Positions 8,120 through 40,782 of a DNA stretch of 64,000 nucleotides are shown here, piece by piece. The notes below the pieces were generated by a model. That model had not been told where the DNA came from. It did not search any database and saw nothing but the letters and a program-made list of their open reading frames with translations. The stretch comes from a virus, in IMG/VR virus record IMGVR_UViG_3300009034_000027, positions 1-64,000 of that record. One strand, given 5' to 3'. Both the position numbers and the translations under genes were made by a program. Positions within the stretch are counted from its first letter, which is position 1, and the number at the start of each line of letters is the position of its first letter.

Positions 8120-8124
8120 GGAGC

Positions 8125-10313: not shown

Positions 10314-10324
10314 AGGAGCTTAGC

Positions 10325-10587: not shown

Positions 10588-11558
10588 TGTCTTTTTGCGA
10601 AGGTTGTGGGAAGGAAGTTGAAGGACTCAACACGTGCTCAAGTTGCCAGTACAGACTTTGTGTAGATTGCTTCTCGACTGTAGGTCAACCGCTGGCGTTG
10701 TGTGAATCTTGTCAGTCAGATAAAGTACGAGACCAAAACTATTGCCAAAGATGTGGACATGCGTTCCCCAGAATAGAAAGTTACAGTTGTGGAAGATGTG
10801 GCGAAGTTATATGCACAGAATGTTTTGGTCCAGTTGAAGGAGAACGTGTCTCTGCATGTATAAATTGTAGAGAGGATGAGATTGTCGAAAGAGGTTGTTA
10901 TATCTGCTTGAGTGTAGATAAGCACTTAGTTTGGTGTAAAGCGTGCAACAGAGTATTCTGTAAAGACTGTGGAGATTTCTTGAAGGATACGTGTAAAAAT
11001 TGTTTGGAGAAGTTTGTTGAGAAAGGAGGCAAGGATGGATTTGAGCATGGAGCAAGTCCCAGCAGGGACGAAGTGGGTAGTGTTGAAGAGGAAAGTGATA
11101 GCGGCAGAGCCAGATGCCAAGAAGTTCTATCTCAAGAAGAACAAGGCAGCGGGCAAGCGTCTCAGGAAGGCGCTCCAGGAGATTCGCAAGATAGCAAAGG
11201 AAGTGAGGGAAGAGACACTGAACCTGGAAAAGAAGAGCAAAGAAAGCAAGAGCAAGAAAAAGAAGAGAGGGAAGAAGTAGTCAGCCCTCTGAAGAAGGCA
11301 ATTCCTGAGCTTGAGAGGATGAAAGAAGTTCGTTGCCCTGGTTGCTCAGGTAGTCTTTTCACTTTGCCTGTAATTTATTCTATCAGGGCTGATAAGAGTG
11401 GAGCAACTTGGTTCAAAGAACTTGGTCGAAAGGTTAATGACTTAACCTGTTATTGCTGCGGCAAGCCAGTGGGGATAGACTTTGGAGAAAGCGATGGCAA
11501 AGAAAAAGAAACCAGCCCTGTTCAAGGATTGGTCAAAGGAGACAAAACGTCTGTCTAA
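10587..11558 (+). CDS. cysteine-rich multi-zinc-finger protein containing a nested gene
   Basis: The 323-residue ORF has an N-terminal half (about residues 1-147) with many CxxC/CxxCG pairs, resembling tandem B-box or RING-like zinc fingers. A Ser/Glu/Gln/Lys-rich linker covers residues of about 150-240, and a C-terminal zinc ribbon (CPGC ... CYCC) follows. The linker coincides with a histone-like gene read in another frame (11035-11280), so its sequence may be a by-product of overprinting. An in-frame ATG at 11319 could start the C-terminal ribbon as a separate product. The last 65 bases overlap the next gene. Function unknown. Confidence 0.7.
   Translation: MSFCEGCGKEVEGLNTCSSCQYRLCVDCFSTVGQPLALCESCQSDKVRDQNYCQRCGHAFPRIESYSCGRCGEVICTECFGPVEGERVSACINCREDEIVERGCYICLSVDKHLVWCKACNRVFCKDCGDFLKDTCKNCLEKFVEKGGKDGFEHGASPSRDEVGSVEEESDSGRARCQEVLSQEEQGSGQASQEGAPGDSQDSKGSEGRDTEPGKEEQRKQEQEKEEREEVVSPLKKAIPELERMKEVRCPGCSGSLFTLPVIYSIRADKSGATWFKELGRKVNDLTCYCCGKPVGIDFGESDGKEKETSPVQGLVKGDKTSV
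11035..11280 (+). CDS. histone H1/Hc1-like basic nucleoid protein, nested gene
   Basis: This 81-residue lysine-rich protein has the segment DAKKFYLKKNKAAGKRLRKA followed by LQEIRKIAKEVREE. That is the characteristic core of bacterial histone H1-like (Hc1-type) proteins, which bind and condense DNA. The tail is poly-Lys/Arg/Ser. Its ATG has a near-perfect SD, AAAGGAGG, five bases upstream, which is strong evidence for expression. It lies wholly inside the zinc-finger ORF in a different frame. A phage copy could compact DNA or act on the host nucleoid. Confidence 0.75.
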   Translation: MDLSMEQVPAGTKWVVLKRKVIAAEPDAKKFYLKKNKAAGKRLRKALQEIRKIAKEVREETLNLEKKSKESKSKKKKRGKK

Positions 11559-11751
11559 TACAGTGCTTCTTCTTGGGAAGGCACACAAAGGCAAGAAATT
11601 CGATGACGTGCCTCTGGAGTACCTGATTTGGATGGCAGACAAGTTCAAAGTTTGGAGCAAGAGCGAAGAAGAAACTGAGAACCTTGAAGCTGTAAGAGCG
11701 TATGTAAAGTTGCCATTGGTGCAGAAGATGATTGAGGAGCAAGGATTATGA
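11494..11751 (+). CDS. DUF3820-like small protein
   Basis: An 85-residue protein with the pattern LLGKAHKGKKFDDVPLEYLIWM. This matches the core of DUF3820 proteins (gk-kGk-f-dvP--YL-w), which occur in many phages and are of unknown function, often near nucleases. GGAG lies six bases before the ATG at 11494. The gene overlaps the end of the zinc-finger ORF by 65 bases and the MazG-like gene by four. Confidence 0.72.
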   Translation: MAKKKKPALFKDWSKETKRLSNTVLLLGKAHKGKKFDDVPLEYLIWMADKFKVWSKSEEETENLEAVRAYVKLPLVQKMIEEQGL

Positions 11752-12383
11752 TGGAGAATATCAAGTCAATGCGAGTGTTCTTAGGTTTTTGCCCTGATTG
11801 CGGGACGCAGATGATGAACAAAAAGGGTTTTCATCTGTATAAATGCCCAAAATGCCACGCCGAAGTAACTCACCAGTTGGCTTCAGAAATCAGGAATCGG
11901 GCAATATTGCTTGACGAGTATCAAGAGATGTCTAAGGACACGGCAATCTATCCTTCCAAGTTTGACTTGATGATTTCAGCACTTGATAGAGCTTATCAAG
12001 AAACACCTACATCCTTTTGCGAGAGTCCTGAAATCTTGCGAATCAAGGAATGTTTGCAATCTTTGATTACAATTCCTTCCAAAGATAGATTCATAAGAAA
12101 GCAGGGAATCTTTGGTAACATAGATTATGTTGTTGAAGGGTTGGCAGGAGAGGCAGGAGAACTGGCTGGCAAGGTTAAGAAAGTCATGCGAGATAATCAA
12201 GGAGAGTTCACGCCAGAGAAAGTTCAAGCCATCAAAGATGAAGTGGGCGATTGTTTTTGGTACTTGGCTCAGATTGGAAGCGAACTTGGTTTCAAATTAA
12301 GTGAAGCTGTTGTTGAAAATAGACTCAAGCTCTTGGACAGACAGGAGAGAGGCAAGCTTGGTGGTTCGGGAGACAAGCGGTAG
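11748..12383 (+). CDS. MazG-like NTP pyrophosphohydrolase with N-terminal zinc ribbon
   Basis: The 211-residue protein begins with a zinc ribbon (CPDCG ... CPKCH). It then shows the all-alpha NTP-PPase signature: EAGE at residues 135-138 and EVGDCFWYL at 165-173, ending with DRQERGKLGGSGDKR, a typical MazG tail. The N-terminal helix DEYQEMSKDTAIYP belongs to the same fold but is separated from the rest by an insertion of about 55 residues. The enzyme would hydrolyse (d)NTPs or an alarmone such as ppGpp. It fits the nucleotide-metabolism block with the Nudix and ThyX-like genes. Confidence 0.88.
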   Translation: MMENIKSMRVFLGFCPDCGTQMMNKKGFHLYKCPKCHAEVTHQLASEIRNRAILLDEYQEMSKDTAIYPSKFDLMISALDRAYQETPTSFCESPEILRIKECLQSLITIPSKDRFIRKQGIFGNIDYVVEGLAGEAGELAGKVKKVMRDNQGEFTPEKVQAIKDEVGDCFWYLAQIGSELGFKLSEAVVENRLKLLDRQERGKLGGSGDKR

Positions 12384-12529: not shown

Positions 12530-12783
12530 AACAGAGAGTTGGACAATGTAATCGCTGTGGCCGATGTTGCATTGGTCGTTTGCTGTACTGTGACGATGAG
12601 CATTTACAGATGTTGATGAAGTAGCATGGGACTGATTTGGTTTGTTTGCATCTCATTCGAGGTGAACCTGCGACTTGTCAAATTTATAAAGACAGGCCTG
12701 TTATTTGCAGAAGTTATCCAGAGACTGAGGATGATGTTTTGGACAGCTGTGGTTATGAGTTTGTTGATGGAGAAGAAGAATGA
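12526..12783 (+). pseudogene. YkgJ/UPF0153-type cysteine-cluster protein interrupted by an in-frame TAG
   Basis: The frame encodes CNRCGRCC near the start, then CLHL, then CQIYKDRPVICRSYP, the full motif set of the YkgJ family, a putative zinc- or iron-chelating domain. A TAG at 12622-12624 interrupts it after 32 codons. The frame stays open for a further 52 codons to the TGA at 12781-12783, which overlaps the next ATG as elsewhere in this operon. No restart codon sits in frame after the TAG. It is a recent nonsense mutation, a sequencing error or a suppressed amber codon. Confidence 0.75.
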
Positions 12784-13832
12784 ACGTAGTTCTGATAGTC
12801 CCGACAGGGATTGGCGCTGAGATTGGTGGCCATTCAGGAGATGCTACCCCAGTAGCTCGATTGATTGGTTCATTGTGTAATAATTTGATTATTCATCCAA
12901 ATGTAGTGAATGCTTCAGATATCAATGAGATGCCTGAGAATGCATTATATGTTGAGGGGAGCATGCTTGATGAATTCCTCAAAGGGAATCTGGCATTGAG
13001 AAAAGTTCGTTCTAATACAGTATGTGTTGCAATCAACCCGCCAGCAAGTCCTGAAATTGTGAATACTGTTTCTGCTGCTCGTGCTATATTGGGGATGGAT
13101 GCTTTTGTTATTGTGTTAGATAAGCCGTTGAAGATGACTGCTATGATTGATGGAAAGGGTGTGGCTACAGGCCTTGTTGACGGTTGGGAAGATTTGGTAG
13201 AGCAAGTTAAATCATACAAATTCGGTGCTTTGGCTGTTTGTACACCTGTCGATGTCCCGAAAGAAGTTGAATTGGATTATTTACAAAATGGCGGAACAAA
13301 TCCTTGGGGTGGGGTTGAGGCTATTCTTTCAAAACTGGTATATGGAAGACTTGGACGGCCTGTTGCCCATGCGCCTTATGATGATAGCCCTATTGAGTTC
13401 AAATCTGTTGTAGACCCAAGAATATCGGCAGAGATGTTGTCTTCGACCAGTCTGTTCTCAGTGTTGAAGGGGCTGAATAAAGCTCCGCAGCCTGCTACTG
13501 AAGGATTGAAAGTTGAGGACATTGCTTGTATGATTTCCCCAATTGGATGCGTTGGGTTGCCTCATGGTGCATGTTTTGCGAGTGGTATCCCAATGTTAAT
13601 TGTCAAGGAAAATCGGACAGTTCTTGCAGGAAGTCTGTTTACTGAAGCAGGTTCTGATTCAGTATTATATGTAGAAAACTATTTGGAAGCAGCAGGGATT
13701 ATTGTTGCTATGCGCATTGGCCTGGATTGGCGTTCTGTCAGAAGGCCACTTGAGCCAACAAGGGTGATTCAGTCAATATCCAGAAGAGACTTGGATAACA
13801 GAGAGCTTGAACTGTTGCTGGGAGATGGTTGA
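12780..13832 (+). CDS. DUF3326 family protein
   Basis: A 350-residue protein. The N-terminal PTGIGAEIGGHSGDATPVARL, HPNVVNASDINEMPEN and ALYVEGSMLDEFL segments match, from memory, the DUF3326 family known from cyanobacteria, archaea and some bacteria, whose reaction is not established to my knowledge. Glycine-rich loops and conserved Asp/Asn/His suggest a metabolic enzyme. It overlaps the YkgJ-like frame by four bases. Its stop abuts the AdoMet-decarboxylase-like GTG start, so both may act in one small-molecule pathway. Confidence 0.8.
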   Translation: MNVVLIVPTGIGAEIGGHSGDATPVARLIGSLCNNLIIHPNVVNASDINEMPENALYVEGSMLDEFLKGNLALRKVRSNTVCVAINPPASPEIVNTVSAARAILGMDAFVIVLDKPLKMTAMIDGKGVATGLVDGWEDLVEQVKSYKFGALAVCTPVDVPKEVELDYLQNGGTNPWGGVEAILSKLVYGRLGRPVAHAPYDDSPIEFKSVVDPRISAEMLSSTSLFSVLKGLNKAPQPATEGLKVEDIACMISPIGCVGLPHGACFASGIPMLIVKENRTVLAGSLFTEAGSDSVLYVENYLEAAGIIVAMRIGLDWRSVRRPLEPTRVIQSISRRDLDNRELELLLGDG

Positions 13833-26549: not shown

Positions 26550-26669
26550 GTGGGAACCGATGTTGGCAGAAACAAAGAGACTCGCAAGCGCCCCACCTTC
26601 TGCCTGGGGGTTGGGGTTGGGCTTCGCGCTCGTGGTTCAGCCCTGCCCTTTGATTTGAGAACAGGATGA
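26550..26669 (+). CDS. possible 39-codon ORF in a GC- and G-run-rich spacer
   Basis: GTG at 26550 follows GGAGG and opens a 39-codon frame whose TGA overlaps the terminase ATG in the usual ATGA way. The product is Gly/Arg-rich (RKRPTFCLGVGVGLRARG). The DNA is far more GC-rich than the surroundings, contains three consecutive G-runs at about 26608-26623, and has GGGCT/AGCCC arms. It may instead be a regulatory leader of the terminase gene. A second open frame (ATG at 26540) overlaps it. Confidence 0.3.
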   Translation: MGTDVGRNKETRKRPTFCLGVGVGLRARGSALPFDLRTG

Positions 26670-28318
26670 GTAAAACAAAAAGACAATTTGAGCGATTGAC
26701 CGAAATGGCAATGGAGCTTCTCAATCCTGAAGAAAAGGAAGAGTATGCCCGTCTGTTCGGGGTGAGTAATGCTCAAGAGCTTGTCCAGAAGATGAGCCAT
26801 ACAGAAAAACAACTCGACCGAATGATTAGAAAGCGTTTGAGCAATCCAATTAAGAATAGACTACAGCTCAGAGATTTGTTCTGGGCGATGGCTGATTATG
26901 CTGGTTTGCCGAGAATTCCTGCTGTTGCTGTTTGTCCAAATCATTGCGCCCCGTTTGATGCTGTAAGTGCGCCATTCTTTGGGCATACTACCAACTATCT
27001 CAAGCATGCAAATAGACACGGCTACAAGACAATGGGCGATGCCTTTCTGATGTTTGTTGAGTCTGTAATGTTCAATGGATGTAAATCTAAGATTCTTGGA
27101 GGCTCAGGAACTCAATCCAAGAACGTCTATGAGTATCTCCAAATGTTTGGCGATATTCCTGCTTGTCACGAAAAGACAAAATCGTTGTTTGTCCAAAGAG
27201 CGATATTCAAGAACAGAAGCGAAGTTTCAATTTTGACGCAATCAATGAAATCAGTCAGAGGCCCGCATCCTCAGAAACTCAGATTGGATGAGATTGAAGA
27301 ATTTGATGCTTCTGTTTTTCGAGCTGCTCTTGCTACTACAAGAAGCTTTGGTGGCGTCTCATCGTCAATTGGGATGGGCAGTACTCACCACAAGCGTTCT
27401 GGCATAATGGCTAATTTGCTCAAGGAGCATTTGAAGAGGGGGATTGCTCTCTTCCAATGGTGTATCTTTGAAGTCATGGCTCAATGTACTGAGAAGTCGT
27501 GTCGTATGTGTAAAGAAGTTACCAAGATTGATTATGAGGGCAATGCTATTTCGTTCTATGATTTGTGTCAAGGCAAGGCAAAAAAGAGTAGAGGCTATTA
27601 TTCCTTGAAAGAGGTTTTGGAAAAATTTTATTTGTTATCTTTGGAAGATTTCAAAGCTGAGTGGCTTTGCCAGGCTATCTCTCTTTCAGGCTATGTCTTT
27701 CCTAAGTTTGAGGCGGAAGAGGAAGTGCTTCATGTTACAGAGAGGGCTGAGTACAATCCTAATCTGCCTTTGACAAGAACATGGGATTTTGGATGGAGTG
27801 GTGCGACAGTAATTCTTTGGATTCAGGTTGACGGCAATCGTCAAAAAAGAGTGATTGATGAAGCGTGGTTTGTGATGACTCCTTTGCCTGAAATTGTGAA
27901 AGTTGTGCTCGGCAAGCCTTACCAATCAAGTTCAGGTAGGATTCTGGATTACGGTGACCCTGGTGGTAAAGGGGGCAAAGACAAAATTATTGGTATTGAT
28001 GATATTTCTTACTTGGGCAGTCAAGGTATTGATATTATCTCTAAGGCTTCAGGGATTCCGCAAGGGTTGAGGTTGGTAAATCAGGCTCTTGAGCCAACCA
28101 GCGGAAAAATAGATTTGATAATTCATCCGAGATGCGAACATCTCATTGAGTACATGAAGGATGCAAAGTATCCTGTTGATGCTCAAGGCCAACCAGTCTC
28201 TGAGATTCCAATAAAAGATGGCAAGGAGCACCCTGGTGATGCTTTGAGGTATTGGTTTGTGAATAATGAGGGTACTTCAGTCAAACCAGCTTATGGTGGC
28301 GAAGTCCTGGTGAAGTAA
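26666..28318 (+). CDS. terL: terminase large subunit
   Basis: A 550-residue packaging motor. A deviant Walker A, NRHGYKT, is followed by Walker B LRLDEIEEFD and the coupling motif MGSTHHKRSG. The C-terminal RNase H-like nuclease has TWDFGWSG, a DPGGKGG segment and HPGDALRYW as its acidic positions. It cuts concatemeric DNA and pumps it into the prohead through the portal encoded next. After its TAA the -1 frame stays open to 28485, suggesting a C-terminal extension lost or gained by frameshift. Confidence 0.93.
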   Translation: MSKTKRQFERLTEMAMELLNPEEKEEYARLFGVSNAQELVQKMSHTEKQLDRMIRKRLSNPIKNRLQLRDLFWAMADYAGLPRIPAVAVCPNHCAPFDAVSAPFFGHTTNYLKHANRHGYKTMGDAFLMFVESVMFNGCKSKILGGSGTQSKNVYEYLQMFGDIPACHEKTKSLFVQRAIFKNRSEVSILTQSMKSVRGPHPQKLRLDEIEEFDASVFRAALATTRSFGGVSSSIGMGSTHHKRSGIMANLLKEHLKRGIALFQWCIFEVMAQCTEKSCRMCKEVTKIDYEGNAISFYDLCQGKAKKSRGYYSLKEVLEKFYLLSLEDFKAEWLCQAISLSGYVFPKFEAEEEVLHVTERAEYNPNLPLTRTWDFGWSGATVILWIQVDGNRQKRVIDEAWFVMTPLPEIVKVVLGKPYQSSSGRILDYGDPGGKGGKDKIIGIDDISYLGSQGIDIISKASGIPQGLRLVNQALEPTSGKIDLIIHPRCEHLIEYMKDAKYPVDAQGQPVSEIPIKDGKEHPGDALRYWFVNNEGTSVKPAYGGEVLVK

Positions 28319-28485
28319 TCAAAACAAAAAAGAAAGATGATGATGAAGACGATGAAGTTCTTGTAATACCAGCTGGAAGATTCAAAGATTGGAGCGAACG
28401 CAAAAGGCTGTCTGCTACAGGAACAGGTTTTGGTTTCTTCCGCAATTCGATGCGTAATCAACTCTTGGGAATCGGAAGGGGATGA
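28312..28485 (+). other. open -1 frame after terminase, candidate frameshifted C-terminal extension
   Basis: Starting at the last codons of the terminase, the -1 frame is open for 57 codons to TGA at 28483-28485, one base before the portal ATG. It reads IKTKKKDDDEDDEVLVIPAG followed by a Gly/Phe/Arg segment, which looks coding. It has no ATG, GTG or TTG near its beginning, and no classic slippery heptamer was found at the junction. A single-base indel between the terminase AAG and TAA would fuse the two frames. Confidence 0.45.
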
Positions 28486-28486
28486 G

Positions 28487-29899
28487 ATGGGAGTTCTTAA
28501 TAAAGTCTTGAAAGCTATTGGTCTTCAAAGAATTCCTGAATCTGTTCCTGCTTTGGGTTTTGTAGATAAAGATGACCATCTATTCCGCCAGCTTGGAATC
28601 CCTGAAAAAGACCTCAGCCCGTTTTTGTGGGAGAGACATGAGAAGATAGCATACTATCTGTTTCTTGTCAACCCTCTTTGTTCTCGTATAATTGAACTCA
28701 GCAAAAACTTTACGGTTGGTGAAGGAGTCGCATTTGAAGCCAAAGATTCCAGAGTCCAAAAAGTTCTTCAAGATTTCTGGGATGATGAGATTAACAATAT
28801 GGAGTTGAGACAATTCAATATGGCTTTGGAACTTTCTCTTTCAGGTGAACAGATTATTGTTCCTACTGTAAATAGATTCTCAGGTGGAGTCACAATTGAA
28901 GTTCTGGATAATTTGCAAGTTGAACGAGTTGTGCCTAATAAACAGAACAGGAATGTCCCTGATGAGTTGGTGCTCAAGAGAACATCAGTTGAATCAGAGC
29001 CAACGACGTTGAAGGTGATAGGCAAGGACAGAAATCCTGAGAGTGAGTCGTTTGGACGATTGGTTGGTGAAGCATTCTTCTTTGCTGTGAATAAGATTAC
29101 TAATGCCACTCGCGGGCATAGTGATGTTTTGGCTTTACTTGATTGGATTGAAGGTTATGATGAGTTTTTGTATTCTGAGCTTGAGCGAGCCCAAGCGATG
29201 AAAGCTCATATTTGGGATGTAGAAATCCAAGGTGCCGACAAACCCGCGATTGATGAATTCTTGAAGAGAGTGCCGCCGCCAAAACCTGGTTCTATAAGGG
29301 CTCACAATGAGAAAATCAAATGGCAGCCTCTGACTCCTGACCTCAAGGCGGCTGATGCGACAGCGCAAGCGAGATTGGTTAGGACACATATTTTGTCTGG
29401 GGCAGGGATGCCTGAAACTTGGTTCTCTCAAGGCGATTCTGCTAATAAGGCCACTGCGGGTGAAATGACTTTCCCTGCTCTCAAAGGTTTGGCAACGAGA
29501 CAAAAATTCTTCAAGCATATCATCAGACGGATTTTCCAATTTGTTATTGACCAAGCCGTAATTGCTGGTACTCTTCCAGCTGGAATTGATGAATCATTCT
29601 CAATCAATATACCGACAGTGGAAAGAAATTTGGTTGAGAAATCGCAAGTGCTAACTGGGATTACTCAATCAATGATGATTGCGAGAGAGAACGCTTGGAT
29701 TTCTGATGCGGAAGCAAAGATAGTTTATCAGCACTTCCTGAATCAGTTGGGAGTAGAGCTTTCAAGATACAGACAAGAAACTGGGAAGCCGAAGCCTGAA
29801 GATGTACTGACTCCTGAAGGAAAAGATAAACCAGGCTTGGTAGAAGATTATCTTTGGGCGATGGATAAATTCAAGGAGAGAGTGGCTGGAGTAGCTTAA
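28487..29899 (+). CDS. portal protein
   Basis: A 470-residue protein in the standard slot between terminase and MuF. It has portal-like features: an N-terminal stretch describing the wing (LVNPLCSRIIELSKNFTVGEGV), LSGEQIIVPTVN, the later PETWFSQGDSANKATAGEMTFPALKGL, and a C-terminal helical region. Portals form a dodecameric ring at one capsid vertex for DNA entry and exit. ATG at 28487 has AAGGGG five bases upstream; an in-frame TTG at 28430 would only add residues read through the preceding frame. The stop overlaps the MuF start. Confidence 0.88.
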   Translation: MGVLNKVLKAIGLQRIPESVPALGFVDKDDHLFRQLGIPEKDLSPFLWERHEKIAYYLFLVNPLCSRIIELSKNFTVGEGVAFEAKDSRVQKVLQDFWDDEINNMELRQFNMALELSLSGEQIIVPTVNRFSGGVTIEVLDNLQVERVVPNKQNRNVPDELVLKRTSVESEPTTLKVIGKDRNPESESFGRLVGEAFFFAVNKITNATRGHSDVLALLDWIEGYDEFLYSELERAQAMKAHIWDVEIQGADKPAIDEFLKRVPPPKPGSIRAHNEKIKWQPLTPDLKAADATAQARLVRTHILSGAGMPETWFSQGDSANKATAGEMTFPALKGLATRQKFFKHIIRRIFQFVIDQAVIAGTLPAGIDESFSINIPTVERNLVEKSQVLTGITQSMMIARENAWISDAEAKIVYQHFLNQLGVELSRYRQETGKPKPEDVLTPEGKDKPGLVEDYLWAMDKFKERVAGVA

Positions 29900-31761
29900 T
29901 GCCTGTTGCCGTTGTTACGCAGAAATACAGAGATAAGTACAAGAAGTTGCTTGCGAAAGCATACAACCAAGTGGATACTACCAGTGAGCTTGGCTTGAAA
30001 GAAATAATTAAGTTTTTGAAAGAGTTGGACAAAAAAGTTACTTACCAAATGGTCAAGGCCAAAAATTATAGAGCAGAGCATCTTCGAGATTTGCGGAAAG
30101 AACTGAAAAAGCATGTTGACGAGTTTGAAAGACGTTTGCTTGAAGTGACCGGGAAGGCTCAAAAGAAAACATACAAACTTGGAGCCAAATCTGTTCTTCA
30201 ATTGCCCAAAAGTTTTCAGGTCAAAGCCGTTCTTCCTGCGGTCTCCGAAGAGGCATTGAGAATTGCTCAATCATTCACTGCTGATTTGGTGACTGGTGTG
30301 ACTAATAAAGTTAGAGAAAGAATAAATAGCGAAGTCTCGCAAGTTGCGTTGGGAGTCAAGAAGCCACTTGACGCTATCAAAGCCCTTGCCCGCATTATTT
30401 CTCCAGTTAGAACGAAAGTTGGTTATGTTGGTACGGCGTATAGGGCTGAGATGATAGTGAGAACTGAAACCAACCGTGCCTTCTCGATTGGAGCTGATGA
30501 GAGAGCCAAGCAAGTCGAGAAGAAATCTCCAGGTTTGAAGAAGTGGTGGCTGACTGCGAGAGATGAGAGAGTTCGGGATTCGCATTATGAAGCTGGGATT
30601 AGGTACAGCGAAGACAAGGCGATTCCTGTTAAGAAAAGATTTTCAGTTGGCCGGGCAAGTCTTGACTATCCCAGTGACCCAGCCGGATTGCCAGAAGAGG
30701 TCATCAATTGCCGGTGTCGCGCTATTTATGTCCATCCCAAATGGGAAGAAGAAGCTGAGGAAGAGGAAAAGAAAGAAATCAAGAAAGAGACAAAAAAGAA
30801 GCTCAAGAAAATTGCTAAGAAAGAGAAAAAGAGAAAGCTGACTCCCAAAGAATACAATGAGAAGCAAATTGCTAAACTTTTCAGCAAGCTTGGGTTGCCG
30901 CCAGATACAACTTTTGGTGGGGTAAAGAAAGAAATCATAAACACGATTCGGGAGGAACCTGACATCTTCGGTTTTTTGAGGCACCATCTTGTGGGCAGCA
31001 ATCCTGATTCTTGGGGAGCGATGGTCTCTGAGATTTTCCCTAAAATTCGTGAAAGAATGGAGAAGAATCTATCTCCAGAATCAAGGAGAAGTCTTGAAGG
31101 ATGGAAACAAGAAGTTGATAAACCAGAGCTTCTGGGCTCTTACAGACGATACTTGGATTTGACTCAGTTAGCTCTGCGAAGGAAATATCCAAGTGGGGCA
31201 ATGAAATTATACAGAGGCTTGGGTCTGCATAGTGTGAAAGCCAGACAAAAAATCACAAAAAATCTTGACCGCCCAGAAAGATTTACTTATTCGCCTGAAG
31301 CAATGGTAGAATCTTGGACAACTTCATATAAACGGGCAAAACGATTCGCTGACGAAGGTTTTGAGGGCGGAGTAGTTCTGGAGATGGAAGTCCCAATTGA
31401 TTACATTGGCGGGTCAATAATTTCTGACCCCAAAAGTTATGCTGAGATGCCTGAAGAACGAGAATCAACTGTGATATCAAAGTTCACTAAAGCTAAAGCT
31501 GAATATTTGGAACCAGTAGGGATGACTGCGATGGATAAGCCGCTCTTCAGAGTAAAGATGGGTTTGAAAGGGAAGAAAATCAAGGAAGCTGAGGAAGAGA
31601 TAGAATTTGATTTCAGTGATTTGACAATTCAATTCCCAATTGATTTGAAAAAAGCCATCGCCTACAGAGAGTACCTCAGAAAACAAGGGAAGTTGAAAGA
31701 CCCTGATATCAGGAGAGCAATAAATCAACATATTGAAAGGCTGAACAAGAGACTTGAATAA
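29899..31761 (+). CDS. MuF-type head morphogenesis protein fused to an ADP-ribosyltransferase-like domain
   Basis: A 620-residue fusion. Residues of about 1-285 match MuF/SPP1 gp7 proteins, ending with RTETNRAFSIGA, a WWLTARDERVRDSHYEA segment and INCRCRA (N270, C271, C273). A Glu/Lys linker follows. The C-terminal part has the R-S-E layout of ADP-ribosyltransferases: R439 in KLYRGLG, S472-S476 in SWTTS, and E520-R-E522. MuF proteins sit inside heads and can be ejected with DNA, so the domain would be an injected toxin or host-modifying enzyme, like T4 Alt. The start overlaps the portal stop (TAATG). Confidence 0.85.
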   Translation: MPVAVVTQKYRDKYKKLLAKAYNQVDTTSELGLKEIIKFLKELDKKVTYQMVKAKNYRAEHLRDLRKELKKHVDEFERRLLEVTGKAQKKTYKLGAKSVLQLPKSFQVKAVLPAVSEEALRIAQSFTADLVTGVTNKVRERINSEVSQVALGVKKPLDAIKALARIISPVRTKVGYVGTAYRAEMIVRTETNRAFSIGADERAKQVEKKSPGLKKWWLTARDERVRDSHYEAGIRYSEDKAIPVKKRFSVGRASLDYPSDPAGLPEEVINCRCRAIYVHPKWEEEAEEEEKKEIKKETKKKLKKIAKKEKKRKLTPKEYNEKQIAKLFSKLGLPPDTTFGGVKKEIINTIREEPDIFGFLRHHLVGSNPDSWGAMVSEIFPKIRERMEKNLSPESRRSLEGWKQEVDKPELLGSYRRYLDLTQLALRRKYPSGAMKLYRGLGLHSVKARQKITKNLDRPERFTYSPEAMVESWTTSYKRAKRFADEGFEGGVVLEMEVPIDYIGGSIISDPKSYAEMPEERESTVISKFTKAKAEYLEPVGMTAMDKPLFRVKMGLKGKKIKEAEEEIEFDFSDLTIQFPIDLKKAIAYREYLRKQGKLKDPDIRRAINQHIERLNKRLE

Positions 31762-32164: not shown

Positions 32165-35100
32165 ATGGAACTTCAGAAAGTAACGTCTAAGTCTCTCCGC
32201 AAGGAGAGTGCCCCGGCTTTGGGGAATATGCATTACCATTGCCATATGCTCTTTGCGTGGTGGAAAAAGGGCAGAGAAAAAATTGATGTCGAGATGGTGA
32301 AGAGAGCGCATGATTTGATTGTGGATGAAGTGGACAGAAGGAAGCTTGCTAAGAAAGAGGAACACGCAACGCCAATTCTGCTCAAAGAAGCACTGGCGAC
32401 AGTGTATCCATCTGGTGTCAAGAAAGGTGAAAAGATAACTTTCAAAGATTTGCCTGATTTTGGGGACTTCTATCTCAACGACAGATTTGTCTCATTGGTA
32501 GGCTCAATCCCAAACAATGGAGAAACCGAGAACGATATTGATTTCTTGATTGCTTGGCCTGAAGATGCTCCAGTTGAGATAGTTCGCCCAATTGAATTTC
32601 GTCTCTGGCGACAATTCGAAAATCTTGACCATCAAGCTCGTTGTTCGTTTCATCTTGATACCTTTCATGGGCCATTCACAAACTCGATTCCATTGTATCG
32701 TTTGAAATGTGAAAGAATCAATCCTGATATGGAGACAATCCTTGCGGCATTGAAACGTGAACCAACGGCAATGGAGCAGTCTGATAAATCAGAAAAGGAA
32801 GATAAGATTCTGCCAATGCGGTTCTTCAATCCTGTAAAAGCAGGTGGTGGTTCTCTGATTATCAGAAAGAAATTCAAAGGGCCGTGGGATTATTCTGCTG
32901 TTATTGAAAAGGCAAAGAAAAAACTGCCCTTGGTAGCCGAGAAGAAGTATGATGGGATGCGGGTTGTTCTTGCTAAGCAAGGCGAGAAAGTTAGGCTCAT
33001 GACCGATGGCGGTACAGATGTGGCTTCAAGATTGCCAAAGCTTGTAGAACAAATTAGGAAAATTCCGCACAAATCCTTTGTTTTGGATTCTGAACTTGAA
33101 TGGTACAAAGATGGGACTCATCAGCCGAGAGAAGAAGTGGCTGCTTCGTTGATGAGTAAGGAGATTTTAGATGAGACCGGCTTTGTGGCGAATATCTTTG
33201 AGATAGTGTATTTGGACGGCAAAGATTTGCACAAACTAACTTGGGAAGAGCGCCATAAGATTCTCAAGAAATTTCCTATCAAGCAGGAACAGTTGGAATT
33301 CAAACCAAGCAAGGAGATGCTTAACAGAGTGCCATCGTTGATAGCAAATTCTGAAGCTGAATTGAAGGCATCTTTGAAGAAAGTTTCAGAAGCAGAAGCT
33401 TCAGAAGGCGGAATTCTGAAATCGCCAACATCGAAATATCCTCTCACTGGCAGCTCAAAGTTGATGATTAAAGCTAAGAAATATGCGACTGTTTTTGGAA
33501 TAGTCGTCAAGAGAAATGAAACCAAAGTGAAAGGGACTTACAATTATGACTATGCCATTAGGATTCCAAAAGCCGTAGTTGACCCAGAATCCATTGTAGA
33601 GATAAAAGGTAAGCCATACTCTCAAACTGGCACATCCTATGCTACAACTGAGAAGCTTGTCAAAGCCGATGTCTTCGCAATTACGTTTCATACCTTTAAT
33701 AAATATATTGACCCGGAGACAGGGAAAATCAGTGGTCGTTTCTATGAGCCTGTCTTTGATGGGAAGGTTGATAGGAGAGAGCCGCATTCGATTGATGAAG
33801 CAATTGCAATTGCTCGTGATGCACAGCTTCTTGGAGAAAAAGAAGGTAAGCAAACTTTCTCGGAAGGAATCACGTCTGTCTTTTTGAAATTCCTTGGTAC
33901 AAAAGGCGAGATTGAGGAAGAATCACCTAAACATAAAAGACATACAGCTATTTTGGTGCTGTATGATGGAGTCTCTGGTTTGATTGACTTTGGAAAAACT
34001 TGGAAAGGCAAGTTTGAAGACGTCAGGAAAATGACAGAAGGGACTCTCCGATGGATTGCAATAACACATGCTCATCCTGACCATATTGGTGGATTGGAAG
34101 GCGAAGAAATTGATTTGCCCGTCTACATGACCGCAGAGACAGACAAACTTCTTTCGCCAGATAAGTTTCTGTTCAAGAATAGAATAGTTCTTAAACCAAA
34201 TGAGAAAGCCGATTTGAAGCATTACGCAACCCTTGAGCCTGTACCAGTTGAACATTCAAGTAAGGCTCCAACTAATGGTTACATACTTAGGCTGTCTCAT
34301 GAAGAACTGAGTTATACAATTGGCTTCTTCCCTGATGTAGCTGACCTTGACGAAAGAGACTTGGAAGGAATAGATATTTACATCGGCGATGGAGCCTCTC
34401 CAGTCAGACCAATCATGAGAGGGAAATCTCCAGAGGGCAAAGATGTCGGTCATGCTTCGATGAAACAGCAGTGTGCTTGGTGCCAGAATGTTGGTATACA
34501 TACAGTTGTTTTTGTGCATCAAGGGAAGCAATCTGTTGAAATGAAGGATGAGAAAATTATTGAGTTATTGAGTCAATCATTCCCGAACAAGGAAATTCTC
34601 TTACCTGATGATGGTGAGACAATAATAGTTCCTGAATACGCAGTTAAGGATGGTGTTTATTTTGTGCCGCCTCATGGAGAATTGATTTGGAATGGTGAAA
34701 AGGATTTAGTGGTTAAAGCGAAACAGTTTCATATCCTCTACCAAAGAACTCATTTCTTAGCTTCAGACCTTGTCTATGGAACTATAAAATTCAAAGAGCC
34801 TTACAAGATAACTTTGGAAGAGTTTGAGAAACTTCGCAAACGACATCGTATTAGTGATGAAGAGAGAAAGAAGTGGTGGCCTGACAAAGATGAACTTTGG
34901 GCTTATGAAATAGAGGACTTCTGGCCTTGGTATGTTCCAAAGCGTTACCAGTATATCAAGGGGGCTCAGGTCATTATCAGGAATCTTCAATTGCTTGAGA
35001 GTCGTGAGAAATCAATCTTGGTTGCCTCTGAATTAAGACTTGAAGAAATGGCCAAAGTTTTTGGTTCTCCTGGAGGCAAACACTTCCAATCTAAAATGCT

Positions 35101-38100
35101 GCTCGAAATTGTGCCTGACCACAAAGTTTATGTAGAACCATATGCAGGCGGCGCAAGTTTGTTCTGGAGAAAGGAACCAAGTGAAAAAGAAATTTTGTCT
35201 GATTTGAATGCTGATATTATTAGCTCCTTCAGGTTTCTTCAGTCAGCATCAATCCTTGATTTTGAAAAATTTCGGAAAAGAAAATGGGTCGGTGAAATAG
35301 ATTACTTCAAGAAACTCAAGCTTTCCAAACCTACAAAACTGATTGATTCTGCTTACAGATATATGTATCTTGTCAGGCATAGTGTTTTTGGAGGTGCAGA
35401 AAACTTTGGTCGAAGTTCGGTGGAAAATTCTGAACCGTTATTTTTGAATAGGTTAGAAGCATACAAAAGGCGTTTGGAAGGCGTCTCAATTCTACACCAA
35501 GATGCGTTTGAAGTCATTCGCAAATACGATTCGCCAGATGCTTTCTTTTATCTTGACCCACCGTATGCTGGCGCTGAAGCTCCAAGAAGGTTCAAGCATT
35601 TTGGAGAAGCACCTAACCACCGAGAGTTGATATCGCTTTTGAAATCCTTGAGGGGCAAATTTTTGCTCAGTTACAGTAATGACTCTGAATTGAAGATACT
35701 TGCAAAACAAGTTGGTTTCAAGGTTGAAAAGGTTCCAGTTCGCAGGCAGCAAATGCCTCACCGAAGTCCTGATATTGATTATGAAGTGTTAGTTTCGAAT
35801 TATGATTTTCACTTGCCCAAGAAGTCATTGAAAGAAGTTGCTTATGTCCACTCGCGCAAGAAGTTTGCTGGTAGTATAGTTAACAAGTTTCCTGAAGAAA
35901 CAAAGATAGTCTTTGACCCGATGTGCGGCGTTGGCTCTGTTCTTGTAGAAGCTGCCCGCCGTGGGATTCAAGTTATGGGGAATGATTTGAATCCTTACGC
36001 CAACAGGTTTGCAAAAGGTATTTTTGAAGGGACGGGGCTGACGCCTTCTGATGTTGAGAAGATGATTCATCCGCCTGAGAAAGAAGGTTGGTTTGCGAAT
36101 AAATACAAGGGCAAACATCCGAGAAACTTGGTATTGAGAGCTTGGGTTGATAGTGTAGTTCTTGGTGTTGAAGAAACTTTCAAGGAAGATGAAAAGAAGA
36201 GAGATGCAGCACGCGCCGCAATCGTATCCTTCTTGGGAAAATTCTTCAGAGGGACGCATACGGGAATGTTTTCTCAATGGCATTACCAAGATGTAGAGAG
36301 AGCTAAGTCAATGCTTAGGTCTTCAATCCTTGAAGTTAATAGGCTCATTGGCCAAGTGGGCGGCAAAGGACTAATTACCAGCCTTGATGCTTTCTCGATG
36401 GAGATTCCAAAGGCTGATGTAATTTTCTTTGACCCGCCAAACTTGTCACAAGCTTCTTACAGGCAAGCTATGTCTGAGTATAAGACAAGGAACGCCATTC
36501 TTCTTCAGAAGGAATTAAGTTTCAAAGCCCCAACCAAAGAGGCAGTTGGGCAGTTGCTTGGAAAGCTTGCGAAGAAAAGTAAGTTGCTGATAGTCTGCTC
36601 TTCAGAGATAGCTGATTTTGATTGGGAAGAGATGCTGAAAAAGCACAAATCAAATGTTACAAAATTCCAAATGCAATATTTCAAGCAAATCAAGTCACTT
36701 GATGCTTTTCAATCTGTTAAGAAGTCAAGAGTCCAAAAACTCTATCTGGCTGAACAAGACCCTTATTTGCTTGTGCCAGATGAGAAGAAAACTTACAAGT
36801 ATATGGTTCACCATCATTGGAGAGGAAAGTCCTGCCACGCAGATTTGCGGCTTGAGTCTGCCTTGAAAGACATGCTAATTGGTTGGACTCTTAATGATTT
36901 GATTAAAGGCGAAGTGAAAGAGCCAGTGCTTACAATGGCAGATGCGAGAAAGATTGAAGCAAATCCGAAAAGATATTTCAAGATAAACTGGAAGACAGGC
37001 GAATGGGCAAAGCGAATTAAGAAGGGTGCTGTTAAACCTGTTAATGTTACAGTGATGACACAGAAGAAAGCGCCTGAGCCAATTGAGTGGATGAAATTTG
37101 AGGGGGTAGTAGAGCCTGGTGAAGTTGGCGCAACTAAAACATTTCCAGGTGTATTTTTGATAAACGACAAAGGCACGATGGAGTATGGTGCACAGAAACC
37201 CTGGTCTCATGAGTATTTCTTTCATGGTGGAGCTTTGAAATACAAACTCGTAATGAGACAATTGAGGGCTGCGTTTGGAGAGGCATTGCTCCAAGACGAA
37301 CTTCTGCAGCGTCAGCTATTTATGTATCCAGATTTGCTTGAAGAGGGATTAGAAGAGAATCTTGAGCGACTGACTGAATCTCTGGACAAAGAGTTTCTTG
37401 AATCTTTGCCGGATAAGCTGTTCAAGGGTTGCTTTGTAGTGGAGTCTAATTTGTTTATAGACTCTTGTGAAGAACAGAGAATACTTCCGCCATCTGAAGA
37501 GAAAGTAGTAGGAGTGAAATGGTTTACAATTAAACCAATTGACCAAACGCCATATGTTTTGGGTGATGAGGCAGTCAAGAAGAAATGGATGCCACCACTT
37601 GGAAAATCGGCATTACCCAAGAAGGTTAGGGCTAAGATTCCTGAACCGCTAAGATACTGGAATGCGAAGAAGCCAAAAGAAGCGCAGATGATTCGAGATG
37701 AGCTTGTTGAGATGATAAAGAAAGATGAGATTAGTTTGCCTGTAGTTGGAGAGGAACTCAGGGAAGCAAGAAAGGGAACTTATGCTCTGAAGTATCATTG
37801 GTTTGCTAAAGTGGGCATGAAGAAGAGAGCAGGTGCGAGTAAATATCATTTCGACTTATTTCTATTAAACAAGAAGAAAGAACATTTTGAATTAGACTTA
37901 GACCCGCTTGAGAATGATGTTATTTCGATTCATCCGCCTGCGCCGGACGTGGCTCATGATGAAAAGGCTGAAGGATTCATTAAACCAGGCGAGTTAGGCA
38001 ACAATACCAAAGAGACTGGAGTGTGGATTGAAGATTGGGCCAGTGGTAAAATGCTGGTACTTGAGGAAACTCCTGTTTTCAAGAAAATCAGATTCTATGG

Positions 38101-38200
38101 GAAACTGAATGGTGTTTGGGTGTTTGAACGAGAGAGCCCAACATCTGAGTTTTGGCAAATGAAATTGAGTAAGCCTGCACCAGTTATGACAACAAAATGA
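32165..38200 (+). CDS. 2011-residue multidomain DNA ligase / nuclease-like / methyltransferase polyprotein
   Basis: Domains in order: a His-rich N-terminus; a Pol-beta-type nucleotidyltransferase (GS at 113-114, D124 and D126); an ATP-dependent DNA ligase (K261 in KYDG, E414 to K419 in EGGILK, KAKKY near 436); a metallo-beta-lactamase fold (H635, H637, D639, H640); a PUA/ASCH-like domain (about 837-945); a Dam-type adenine methyltransferase (GGKHFQSK at 970, DPPY at 1131); a second class I methyltransferase (DPMCG at 1251, DPPN at 1423); a LigD phosphoesterase-like domain (HHHW at 1549, CHADLRLE at 1557); and a second related domain (about 1820-2011). It lies between MuF and the prohead protease, suggesting a virion or maturation role. 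I do not know this combination from described proteins. Confidence 0.85.
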   Translation: MELQKVTSKSLRKESAPALGNMHYHCHMLFAWWKKGREKIDVEMVKRAHDLIVDEVDRRKLAKKEEHATPILLKEALATVYPSGVKKGEKITFKDLPDFGDFYLNDRFVSLVGSIPNNGETENDIDFLIAWPEDAPVEIVRPIEFRLWRQFENLDHQARCSFHLDTFHGPFTNSIPLYRLKCERINPDMETILAALKREPTAMEQSDKSEKEDKILPMRFFNPVKAGGGSLIIRKKFKGPWDYSAVIEKAKKKLPLVAEKKYDGMRVVLAKQGEKVRLMTDGGTDVASRLPKLVEQIRKIPHKSFVLDSELEWYKDGTHQPREEVAASLMSKEILDETGFVANIFEIVYLDGKDLHKLTWEERHKILKKFPIKQEQLEFKPSKEMLNRVPSLIANSEAELKASLKKVSEAEASEGGILKSPTSKYPLTGSSKLMIKAKKYATVFGIVVKRNETKVKGTYNYDYAIRIPKAVVDPESIVEIKGKPYSQTGTSYATTEKLVKADVFAITFHTFNKYIDPETGKISGRFYEPVFDGKVDRREPHSIDEAIAIARDAQLLGEKEGKQTFSEGITSVFLKFLGTKGEIEEESPKHKRHTAILVLYDGVSGLIDFGKTWKGKFEDVRKMTEGTLRWIAITHAHPDHIGGLEGEEIDLPVYMTAETDKLLSPDKFLFKNRIVLKPNEKADLKHYATLEPVPVEHSSKAPTNGYILRLSHEELSYTIGFFPDVADLDERDLEGIDIYIGDGASPVRPIMRGKSPEGKDVGHASMKQQCAWCQNVGIHTVVFVHQGKQSVEMKDEKIIELLSQSFPNKEILLPDDGETIIVPEYAVKDGVYFVPPHGELIWNGEKDLVVKAKQFHILYQRTHFLASDLVYGTIKFKEPYKITLEEFEKLRKRHRISDEERKKWWPDKDELWAYEIEDFWPWYVPKRYQYIKGAQVIIRNLQLLESREKSILVASELRLEEMAKVFGSPGGKHFQSKMLLEIVPDHKVYVEPYAGGASLFWRKEPSEKEILSDLNADIISSFRFLQSASILDFEKFRKRKWVGEIDYFKKLKLSKPTKLIDSAYRYMYLVRHSVFGGAENFGRSSVENSEPLFLNRLEAYKRRLEGVSILHQDAFEVIRKYDSPDAFFYLDPPYAGAEAPRRFKHFGEAPNHRELISLLKSLRGKFLLSYSNDSELKILAKQVGFKVEKVPVRRQQMPHRSPDIDYEVLVSNYDFHLPKKSLKEVAYVHSRKKFAGSIVNKFPEETKIVFDPMCGVGSVLVEAARRGIQVMGNDLNPYANRFAKGIFEGTGLTPSDVEKMIHPPEKEGWFANKYKGKHPRNLVLRAWVDSVVLGVEETFKEDEKKRDAARAAIVSFLGKFFRGTHTGMFSQWHYQDVERAKSMLRSSILEVNRLIGQVGGKGLITSLDAFSMEIPKADVIFFDPPNLSQASYRQAMSEYKTRNAILLQKELSFKAPTKEAVGQLLGKLAKKSKLLIVCSSEIADFDWEEMLKKHKSNVTKFQMQYFKQIKSLDAFQSVKKSRVQKLYLAEQDPYLLVPDEKKTYKYMVHHHWRGKSCHADLRLESALKDMLIGWTLNDLIKGEVKEPVLTMADARKIEANPKRYFKINWKTGEWAKRIKKGAVKPVNVTVMTQKKAPEPIEWMKFEGVVEPGEVGATKTFPGVFLINDKGTMEYGAQKPWSHEYFFHGGALKYKLVMRQLRAAFGEALLQDELLQRQLFMYPDLLEEGLEENLERLTESLDKEFLESLPDKLFKGCFVVESNLFIDSCEEQRILPPSEEKVVGVKWFTIKPIDQTPYVLGDEAVKKKWMPPLGKSALPKKVRAKIPEPLRYWNAKKPKEAQMIRDELVEMIKKDEISLPVVGEELREARKGTYALKYHWFAKVGMKKRAGASKYHFDLFLLNKKKEHFELDLDPLENDVISIHPPAPDVAHDEKAEGFIKPGELGNNTKETGVWIEDWASGKMLVLEETPVFKKIRFYGKLNGVWVFERESPTSEFWQMKLSKPAPVMTTK

Positions 38201-38217
38201 TTCGAAAGGAGAATGCT

Positions 38218-40782
38218 GTGAGCTTGTTAGATTTGTTGACAGAATCGTCTGTCCTACTAATTGAGAAGGGAGGTGCTGAAGGAAGAGTTTGGGATGTTGT
38301 GCTGATTGACGTTGGTCTATCGCTCAACAACAAATTGTATGGGCCTGAAGTGCTCAAGGGTGCGAAGGATTTGTTTGAGGGAAGCAAATGTTTTGCTTAT
38401 GAGTTCAAGGCAGGGGCAGCAGAAAAAATGTATAATCATCTGCCTTGGAAAATAAGAAAAGTCATGCCGGATGGGTTGGTTAGGAATCTGGTGGGTGACT
38501 TTCGCAATGTCCGATTCGGTAAGTATCGGAAGCCAGATGGGACTCAAAGCGAGGCTTTGTTATCTGAGTTTCATTGTATTGAAGATTGGCTGAGAAAGAA
38601 ACTTTTGGGTGCTTACAAAAGCGGGAACCCAAGAATTCTTGGTTTCTCGATTGACGCTGAAGGGATTGTCGTTGATTATCCTTACAAAGGTAAGATAGTC
38701 AAGAAGGTAATGAGCATCGAGAAAGTTCACGAAGTCACTGCGGTTACCAGCCCAGCGGCTGGTGGGAAGATATTGCGTTTGGTTGCTTCTATTGAAGGGG
38801 AACAAGTAATGGATGAATTGAAGAAGTTGCTGGAGAAGCTGTTCGGCGGCAAAGCCTTCCTGGGCGGGAAGCTTATGGAAGGTGTTGACGAGCTTGATGA
38901 AGAGAAAGTAATTGAGCTTGTTGACAAGGCGGTTGAGGAAGTGGAGAAGGATGAGAAGTTGGCTGAGACTTCAACCCTGCCTGTGGTGCTTCGCGCCCTG
39001 CGTGATACGTTGAAGGCAGGAGACACTGCGAAGGCCATGAAGATACTTGATGACCTCATCGCCAATCTCGCCAAGTACCCCTATCCGCCACCTGCGGGAG
39101 GGAAAGCGCCGTATCCGAAACCAACAGCTTCCAAGGAATCTGATGACGACGATGCCAAAGTTTCACCAGAAGAGTTCCAAAAGGTGAAGGACACCTTGGC
39201 AAAGGTTGAAGAGGAAAAGAAAGAGATAGCACGTAAGGCTGAAATCAAAAACCTGATTTCAGAGGCCAAGCTTTCTGATGCCAAAAAGACAGAACTTACA
39301 AAAGCCTGTGAGAAAGTTTCTGTTGAGGAAGCAAAGAAGTTGATTGAGAAGGCAGAAGCTGACTCGCCAATGCAGGAAAGTGAGGAAGTCAAAGAGCTGA
39401 AAGAAGGCATGGACAAACTCCAAGGTGAGGTCAAAGAAAGCAAAGAAGAGTTGGCGAAGATTCTTGAGTCTGAACGCAAGACAAAAGTTCGCTTGCTCAT
39501 AACCGAGTCCAAGCTGCCCAAGCCAGTACTTGATAAGCTGACCGAGCAACATGCTGACTCAAAGCCGGAAGTTGTTGAGAAAGCGATTGTGCTTGAGCGA
39601 AAGGTCTTGGCTGCTCTGAGTGAGACAGTCGGCAGCGGTATTGCGGTTGACCGTGTCTCTTTGGTTGAGTCAGAAAGAGACAAATACCAGAAGGCAATGG
39701 ATGGACTCTTTGAGGCCAAGGCCGTTGACGGCGTCCAGCCATTCCGCGGCATCCAGCACGCCTACCGTGTAATAACTGGAAGAGCAGAATTTGAGACAAG
39801 GGAAATCCTTGCCGAGGCCATTGCGTTTATTCCCGGTTTCACAAAGGACAATAAGCGGCTGGCTGAGTCCTTGAAGACTTCGGACTTTGCCCAGATTCTC
39901 GGTGACTCGATTGCCCGCAAGATGATTAGAGAGTACAAGCTTGACCAGTTGAATGTCTGGCGCTTGTTTGTTTCGGAGTTCTCTAACATCAAGGACTTCA
40001 GAGTCAATCCACGGATGAGGATGGGTGGTTATGGGATTTTGCCGAAAGTTGCTGAGCAGGGAACCTACCAGAACCTAACCTCGCCAGGAGACGAGCAGGC
40101 AACATATGCCATCGAGAAACGTGGTGGGCTGGAAGACCTCACGATGGAGATGATTGCGAATGACGACGTTGGCGCGCTGAAGAAAATCCCGATGAAACTG
40201 GGACGCGCTGCCGTGCTGACTCTTTATCGCACAATCTTCGACATCCTGTTGAACAACCCAACTATATATGACGGCAAGACTCTCTTCCATGCCGACCACG
40301 GGAATACCGACACCAAAGTTTTGAGTCATGACAATCTGACTTTGGTCAGGAAGGCGATGCAGAAACAACAGCCTTACGGTCATGATGACGAGTTCTTGGG
40401 CATGATGAATGTACCTGCCTATCTGGTTATTCCGCCAGACCTTGAGGATACTGCGTTCAAGATTCTGAAGTCAACTGTAGAGTTGACTTCCAACAAGGAC
40501 GCAACTGTGCCGAATATCCACAGCACTTATCTCAAGGACTATGTCTCAGTGCCTTACTGGACTGATGCGACAGACTGGGTTGCTGTTGCTGACCCTGCTA
40601 TGATTCCGACTATCGAGGTTGGTTTCTATCAGGGCAAGCAGGAGCCTGAACTGTTCGTCCAAGACCAGCCGAATGTAGGCTCAGTCTTTACGGCTGACAA
40701 GATAACCTACAAGATTAGGCACATTTGGGGCTACACCGTTCTTGATTACAGAGGATTTTACAAGAATGTGGCAGCTGGATAA
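38218..40782 (+). CDS. prohead protease - scaffold - major capsid protein fusion (Mu gpI/gpT-like)
   Basis: An 854-residue protein. Residues 1-200 look like a prohead serine protease (H119, S144 in ILGFSIDAEG, then VHEVTAVTSPAAGGKILRL). A Glu/Lys coiled-coil scaffold covers about 210-460. The rest matches Mu gpT-type major head subunits, with TIYDGKTLFHADHG and the terminal VFTADKITYKIRHIWGYTVLDYRGFYK. In most phages these are two or three genes. GTG at 38218 has AAAGGAG six bases upstream; the ATG at 38197 overlaps the previous stop but lacks an SD. Codons in the capsid part are richer in C, as expected for high expression. A strong hairpin follows. Confidence 0.88.
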   Translation: MSLLDLLTESSVLLIEKGGAEGRVWDVVLIDVGLSLNNKLYGPEVLKGAKDLFEGSKCFAYEFKAGAAEKMYNHLPWKIRKVMPDGLVRNLVGDFRNVRFGKYRKPDGTQSEALLSEFHCIEDWLRKKLLGAYKSGNPRILGFSIDAEGIVVDYPYKGKIVKKVMSIEKVHEVTAVTSPAAGGKILRLVASIEGEQVMDELKKLLEKLFGGKAFLGGKLMEGVDELDEEKVIELVDKAVEEVEKDEKLAETSTLPVVLRALRDTLKAGDTAKAMKILDDLIANLAKYPYPPPAGGKAPYPKPTASKESDDDDAKVSPEEFQKVKDTLAKVEEEKKEIARKAEIKNLISEAKLSDAKKTELTKACEKVSVEEAKKLIEKAEADSPMQESEEVKELKEGMDKLQGEVKESKEELAKILESERKTKVRLLITESKLPKPVLDKLTEQHADSKPEVVEKAIVLERKVLAALSETVGSGIAVDRVSLVESERDKYQKAMDGLFEAKAVDGVQPFRGIQHAYRVITGRAEFETREILAEAIAFIPGFTKDNKRLAESLKTSDFAQILGDSIARKMIREYKLDQLNVWRLFVSEFSNIKDFRVNPRMRMGGYGILPKVAEQGTYQNLTSPGDEQATYAIEKRGGLEDLTMEMIANDDVGALKKIPMKLGRAAVLTLYRTIFDILLNNPTIYDGKTLFHADHGNTDTKVLSHDNLTLVRKAMQKQQPYGHDDEFLGMMNVPAYLVIPPDLEDTAFKILKSTVELTSNKDATVPNIHSTYLKDYVSVPYWTDATDWVAVADPAMIPTIEVGFYQGKQEPELFVQDQPNVGSVFTADKITYKIRHIWGYTVLDYRGFYKNVAAG

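Follow-up and report, generated by a model that had tools for sequence, protein, structure and literature searches.

A head-operon polyvalent protein with a LigD-like core of ligase and phosphoesterase domains in an IMG/VR virus and its relatives

The 64,000-nucleotide stretch analysed here (the window; positions 1 to 64,000 of the 68-kb IMG/VR virus record IMGVR_UViG_3300009034_000027) contains a single uninterrupted frame of 2011 codons at 32165-38200, which is located between head genes and is preceded by a GAGG upstream of its ATG start. The domain anatomy of the encoded protein is nearly certain and comprises a nucleotidyltransferase-like (NTase) domain, an ATP-dependent DNA ligase, a metallo-β-lactamase-fold (MBL) hydrolase, an ASCH/PUA-like domain, two methyltransferases and two LigD-type phosphoesterase (PE) domains, PEa and PEb, which are separated by a conserved module termed PEm (Table 1). 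In the reading favoured here, for which the chances appear evenly balanced, the product is a head-associated polyvalent protein with LigD-like functions in DNA end-healing, sealing and modification, which is packaged and delivered with the genome. This reading is backed by the order of the core domains, fusion to the S78 protease, the neighbouring head genes, residue conservation, purifying selection and the interchangeability of the modification modules. A preliminary description of the DNA had already proposed one uninterrupted gene at this place; its open frame and 2011-residue translation were reproduced, and the residues cited therein (K261, HAHPDH at 635-640, DPPY at 1131, DPPN at 1423 and HHHW at 1549) were all found at these positions.

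Assignment of the C-terminal region to two LigD phosphoesterase-like domains, as suggested in the preliminary description, is borne out by profile and structure comparisons. Searching the PDB with the profile of PEb (E-values up to 10) yields five matches, all of which are LigD PE domains, and the profile of PEa finds the same top two proteins (3p4h and 3p43) at 0.049 and 0.13. The best four PDB matches of an AlphaFold model of residues 1519-2011 (pLDDT 77) are the LigD PE structures 3p43, 3p4h, 3n9b and 5dmp, followed by a clear drop. Profile comparison further reveals that PEa and PEb are homologous to each other, while the intervening PEm, about 88 residues in length, matches no known family. 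Within PEa, His1551, His1558 and Asp1560, which correspond to the metal ligands His42, His48 and Asp50 of LigD, as well as Arg1562, the equivalent of Arg52, are conserved in 65, 66, 66 and 65 of 66 sequences, respectively. The position of LigD His84, in contrast, is taken by Glu1638 (Glu in 46, Gln in 8 and His in 3 of the 66 sequences), and that of Tyr88 by Trp1642, which is present in all 66. Mutation of either His84 or Tyr88 abolishes the PE activity of Pseudomonas LigD (PMC8656161). Since the metal-binding residues are kept and His84 and Tyr88 are replaced, PEa represents a subfamily of PE domains in which the metal site has stayed intact while the phosphate site is altered. PEb lacks the metal ligands in most members, the window copy retaining a His and an Asp of the second motif. 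In two relatives PEa is split by an intein-like insertion (L020, residues ~1188-1479 of the open reading frame (ORF) 3444-8570; L024, residues ~1192-1518 of ORF 6624-12281). Both insertions show Hint and/or LAGLIDADG matches below the Pfam cut-offs, start with Cys and end with Asn followed by Thr or Ser.

With iterated profiles built from the window protein, about 72 non-redundant loci were collected from IMG/VR and metagenome bins, together with that of the named archaeal virus ANMV-1; PEa served as search bait and is present in all 72 by construction. Searches with C-terminal profiles contributed 64 viral loci and nine metagenome-bin contigs, an earlier scan of genome contigs having given none, and tblastn against named phages identified the ANMV-1 virus from a methane seep. 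The bins are assigned to Aenigmatarchaeota, Thermoplasmata, Methanosarcinales, Alkanophagales, Archaeoglobales, Euryarchaeota, Planctomycetota, Dehalococcoidia and one bacterium, but because two bin contigs (21,866 and 24,094 bases) equal IMG/VR contigs in size, these names can only suggest hosts. Across the 72 loci the order of the core, NTase-ligase-OB-PEa-PEm-PEb, is fixed, with the ligase detected in 53 and the NTase in 48 of them. The remaining modules vary: ASCH is found in 24 loci, Dam in 22, the second methyltransferase in 14, MBL in 11 and a TGT-like domain in 5. Their places vary as well. ASCH comes first in L020 and L022, ASCH and MBL precede the NTase in L022-L024 and L084, Dam lies between PEm and PEb in L012, and L016 contains two copies of Dam. 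In eight loci (L032, L038, L044, L063, L066, L085, L090 and L094) the modules are distributed among neighbouring ORFs.

Scanning with the complete protein sequence retrieved L002, a protein of 1745 residues with 68% identity, which is without the Dam block only. The domain order of the window protein had been looked for in other genomes, as proposed earlier, and was found, in one frame and without Dam, in L002 and in L004 (1732 residues), which are independent contigs from other metagenomes; the Dam domain is thus missing from the closest relatives of the window protein. L084, a member of the family that is longer than the window protein (2241 residues), carries Dam inside a similar set of domains. 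Together, L002, L004 and L084 rule out an assembly fusion, and failure of the segments to match the proposed folds, which was likewise tested, is excluded, the NTase being the weakest case. All domains are under purifying selection: over the whole protein, comparison of the window with L002 gives a pN of 0.20 and a pS of 0.80, with similar values for all modules and saturated dS.

In L008, L009 and L017 a TGT/DpdA-like N-terminal domain is fused to the core. Neighbouring genes encode GTP cyclohydrolase I/FolE (all three loci), a QueE-like radical SAM protein (L009 and L017) and QueC (L009), which points to a predicted 7-deazaguanine modification of DNA of the DpdA kind. By profile, the TGT-like domain retrieved only a repeat-protein artefact from the PDB, the assignment being based on motifs and the preQ0 gene neighbours. 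Two further modules were observed at individual loci: a C5-cytosine methyltransferase N-terminal fragment is fused ahead of the ligase in L013 (2-3445), and an 826-residue upstream protein of L008 (1879-4359) combines a 2H phosphoesterase of the 2'-5' RNA ligase family with the NTase module.

In 28 of the 72 loci the PE domains are followed, within the same polypeptide, by an XkdF/S78 prohead protease, which is always the last, C-terminal domain, and in 8 further loci the S78 protease is encoded by a separate ORF; the S78_2 Pfam matches range from about 1e-24 to 1e-30. According to Pfam, the upstream neighbours (up to three per locus, 125 proteins) include 25 portal, 19 MuF and 9 terminase proteins, and the downstream neighbours (up to two per locus, 116 proteins) 16 S78 proteases together with various capsid and cement proteins. 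Likewise, in the window, terminase, portal and MuF genes lie upstream of the 2011-codon ORF and a Mu/HK97-type capsid gene lies downstream. The position between MuF and the prohead protease that had been reported for the gene holds for its upstream side. The next gene, however, encodes a capsid protein of the protease/capsid-fusion type, in which an N-terminal protease domain was not demonstrated: profile comparison, iterative search and Pfam gave no link to S78. Two short genes matched by the XkdF/S78 region (L030, 3003-3467; L029, 5028-5660; Pseudomonas and Rhizobium phages) are labelled 'DNA methyltransferase', a label perhaps inherited from fused relatives. The portal protein of L017 (2-2662) contains an intein-like insertion with a LAGLIDADG domain.

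The N-terminal and central domains differ in how firmly they can be assigned. The proposed ATP-dependent ligase is recovered by Pfam above the curated cut-off, with a catalytic domain that contains the motif I Lys and motifs III and IV, as expected of an ATP-dependent DNA ligase. By profile, its nearest relatives are replicative-type ligases of archaea and eukaryotes (3gde, 6.9e-20), and the motif I Lys is present in 50 of the 53 loci with a ligase. The domain that follows is probably the OB fold of the ligase. The MBL-fold and Dam-like domains also score above the curated Pfam cut-offs; the HxHxDH motif is kept in all 11 MBL-bearing members, and the Dam domains contain DPP in 24 of 24 and the Tyr of DPPY in 21. 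The proposed PUA/ASCH-like segment matches the ASCH protein TTHA0113, while the second methyltransferase is recognized as D12-like through its relatives (Pfam D12, 1.2e-13 in L020 and 8.1e-9 in L002), with motif D and DPP in 14 of 14. The weakest assignment is the nucleotidyltransferase. Its G...DxD motif is invariant in the Gly and both Asp in 41 of 41 members, and all 39 PDB matches of the profile are Pol beta/TdT proteins of the Pol X family; these matches are weak (E-values of 0.16-0.8), and the fold was not confirmed. That catalytic residues are lost in homologues is mostly excluded, except for the His84 and Tyr88 positions of PEa and for PEb, which is degenerate in most relatives.

We infer enzymatic activity, substrate, encapsidation, cleavage and injection to be connected as follows. 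Made together with the capsid genes, the protein would enter the prohead, most likely via the route of the S78/XkdF protease, its fusion partner in many relatives, and this protease may cut the enzyme free. Delivered with the genome, the enzyme would repair, close and protect incoming viral DNA: the PE domain would clean 3' ends, nucleotide addition or transfer may be the task of the NTase-like domain, and the ligase would seal the nick or joined end. The Dam domain, the second methyltransferase, ASCH as a reader and the MBL hydrolase (TGT/DpdA-like domains in relatives) might mark or inspect the same DNA. Packaging is the simplest reading of the repeated occurrence in head operons and the protease fusion, as for the DarB protein of phage P1; the occurrence of this fusion throughout the family and the conserved place among head genes lend strong, though indirect, support to packaging and processing by the protease.

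Several observations weigh against this reading. No virion proteomics were found for any family member. The window copy is without a protease fusion, and in the adjoining gene a protease domain was not demonstrated by the three approaches named above. In most records checked the ligase is the sole PF01068 ligase and could have a replication role. Having no equivalents of His84 and Tyr88, PEa may be altered in its activity or may have lost it. Moreover, no Ku was detected in 39 records, many of which are fragments, and the fold search did not confirm the NTase fold.

The protein might instead act late and solely in the producing cell, sealing nicks, trimming ends and modifying DNA at packaging or maturation without being injected. 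Head-operon position and protease association are equally expected in this case, and some S78 proteases are encoded by separate ORFs. However, unless earlier cleavage intervenes, the C-terminal protease fusion of 28 loci puts the enzymes into the prohead, and the modification theme fits shielding of incoming DNA, as by the Dar proteins of P1 (PMC9024508). Restriction to the producing cell is regarded as unlikely. Another explanation, rated as quite improbable, is that the LigD-like region is now mainly structural, in the head or scaffold, with the ligase and methyltransferases as passengers. The missing metal ligands of PEb in most members and the His84/Tyr88 replacements of PEa are in line with such a role, as is the presence of PEa at every locus, though PEa was the search bait; conservation of the His, His, Asp and Arg of PEa in 65-66 of 66 sequences, on the other hand, is typical of a catalytic or metal site. 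That an ordinary replicative or repair ligase became fused to methyltransferases and lies in the late operon by chance would agree with the finding of a single PF01068 ligase in each of 16 out of 20 searched records and with the replicative-type affinity of the ligase, but is very unlikely, as L015, L019, L068 and L075 have PE domains at the same place with no detected ligase, several of them S78-fused, and the head-operon position recurs in many divergent contigs.

Outside the gene itself, the downstream capsid ORF likely starts at a GTG (38218) behind AGGAG instead of the overlapping ATG at 38197. Microcystis phage Mae-JY22, the nearest named relative of the capsid protein, lacks a gene of this kind between its equivalent head genes. 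In addition, the window virus encodes a bacterial-type RecA and a DUF3326 protein (12780-13832; Pfam 2.6e-72).

Table 1. Positions of the polyvalent gene, its domains and the neighbouring head genes in the window.
Feature	Residues	Position	Strand	Basis
Terminase large subunit		26666..28318	+	phrog_2 1.2e-9
Portal protein		28430..29899	+	phrog_10963 9e-39
MuF head morphogenesis protein		29899..31761	+	Pfam 1.9e-7
Polyvalent NTase-ligase-PE protein, 2011-residue ORF		32165..38200	+	same family in about 72 loci
Helical N-terminal segment, common to some relatives	1-75	32165..32389	+	all-helical in model
Pol beta-superfamily nucleotidyltransferase-like domain (GS...DID)	77-221	32393..32827	+	motifs; weak Pol X matches
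ATP-dependent DNA ligase catalytic domain, Lys261 motif I	254-436	32924..33472	+	Pfam 1.8e-20
Conserved domain 3' of ligase core	443-560	33491..33844	+	module map
Metallo-β-lactamase-fold hydrolase, RNase Z/PhnP-like	574-818	33884..34618	+	Pfam 3.5e-11; RNase Z 1.5e-6
ASCH/PUA-like domain	829-945	34649..34999	+	2dp9/1wk2 7.5e-4
Dam/D12 adenine methyltransferase	966-1194	35060..35746	+	Pfam 1.5e-24; phrog_56 2.8e-39
Second D12-like methyltransferase (DPMCG, DPPN)	1223-1510	35831..36694	+	D12 matches in relatives
LigD-type 3'-phosphoesterase domain A (PEa)	1531-1701	36755..37267	+	conserved residues; fold
Conserved linker module PEm (PYVL..AVKKxWMPPxGxSALP)	1773-1858	37481..37738	+	in 70/72 loci
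LigD-type phosphoesterase domain B (PEb)	1874-2000	37784..38164	+	3p4h 5.1e-7, 3p43 1.1e-6; alignment
Major capsid protein, protease/capsid-fusion type		38197..40782	+	Pfam 8.7e-48; NF045541 1.1e-63 over residues 400-858

A few model phages provide most of what is known about genome repair, circularisation and shielding by tailed viruses during the initial minutes following entry. In the family described here, end-healing, sealing and modification domains are joined in one head-operon protein, on contigs from both bacterial and archaeal bins. If the protein is packaged, DNA end repair would join the known virion-delivered functions, the presence of a ligase among the capsid genes of some viruses would be explained, and fusion to the maturation protease would constitute a testable route of protein loading. 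A broader proposal, put forward tentatively and doubtful at present, is that a widespread class of tailed viruses of bacteria and archaea carries a self-contained, capsid-borne, Ku-independent, LigD-like end-joining machine. This machine would be loaded by fusion to the prohead protease, or by the route that the protease takes, and released by it; it would close and repair the injected linear genome and, by means of exchangeable modification modules, mark it against host defences.

LigD combines a polymerase, a phosphoesterase that cleans 3' ends, and a ligase (POL-PE-LIG). Like bacterial and archaeal LigD, the window protein is a single polypeptide with a ligase, a nucleotidyltransferase and a 3'-phosphoesterase of the LigD type. 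It differs in its Pol beta-type NTase, which replaces the AEP polymerase, in possessing two PE domains, in the changed phosphate-binding residues of the PE domain and in its LIG1-like ligase; no AEP-type polymerase domain was found in the window protein by Pfam or NCBIfam. Classical Ku-LigD non-homologous end joining was rejected, as no Ku was found in the 39 records, many of them fragmentary. The core is thus composed of the same kinds of part as LigD but falls outside LigD proper with respect to His84/Tyr88, the AEP polymerase and Ku.

No paper on this family or on a head-operon DNA ligase was found in the open-access literature, subscription papers, preprints and supplements lying outside the search. 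The combination of domains, which was new to the author of the preliminary description, is only in part without precedent, since a smaller relative is present in GenBank and the polyvalent class is known (PMC5512222), the class as described in the main text of that paper being without a DNA ligase. The smaller relative is AJP62006.1 of ANMV-1 virus (KP703175, annotated as 'ATP-dependent DNA ligase'), a clear homologue with the same NTase-ligase-OB-PEa-PEm-PEb order, encoded directly after a portal-like gene. Unlike the window protein, it comprises only 866 residues, is without MBL, ASCH, Dam and second methyltransferase domains and shows no protease fusion. The ANMV-1 protein AJP62007 (L003, 5868-9368) is a cysteine-rich repeat protein of 1166 residues, the C-terminus of which resembles the MuF end motif.

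Polyvalent phage proteins (Iyer et al. 2017, PMC5512222) resemble the window protein as giant multi-enzyme polypeptides with modification domains and shuffling, encoded beside MuF, portal and packaging genes. The same features are seen in the present family, in which several catalytic domains per polypeptide are shuffled and the gene lies with head and packaging genes such as portal and terminase. The main text of that paper contains no DNA ligase, ASCH, XkdF or LigD; compared with the proteins described there, the window family is distinguished by its fixed LigD-like core and the prohead-protease fusion. P1 DarB, a 250 kDa methylase protein, is packaged in the P1 head, is believed to enter the cell and is named alongside the portal and the prohead protease (PMC9024508), and thus parallels the window protein as a very large, methyltransferase-bearing product. 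A DarB-type methyltransferase-helicase was considered and rejected, Pfam and NCBIfam detecting no helicase domain in the window protein. In DarB-like proteins the methylase is fused to a SWI2/SNF2 helicase (PMC5512222), whereas the window family possesses a ligase and phosphoesterases.

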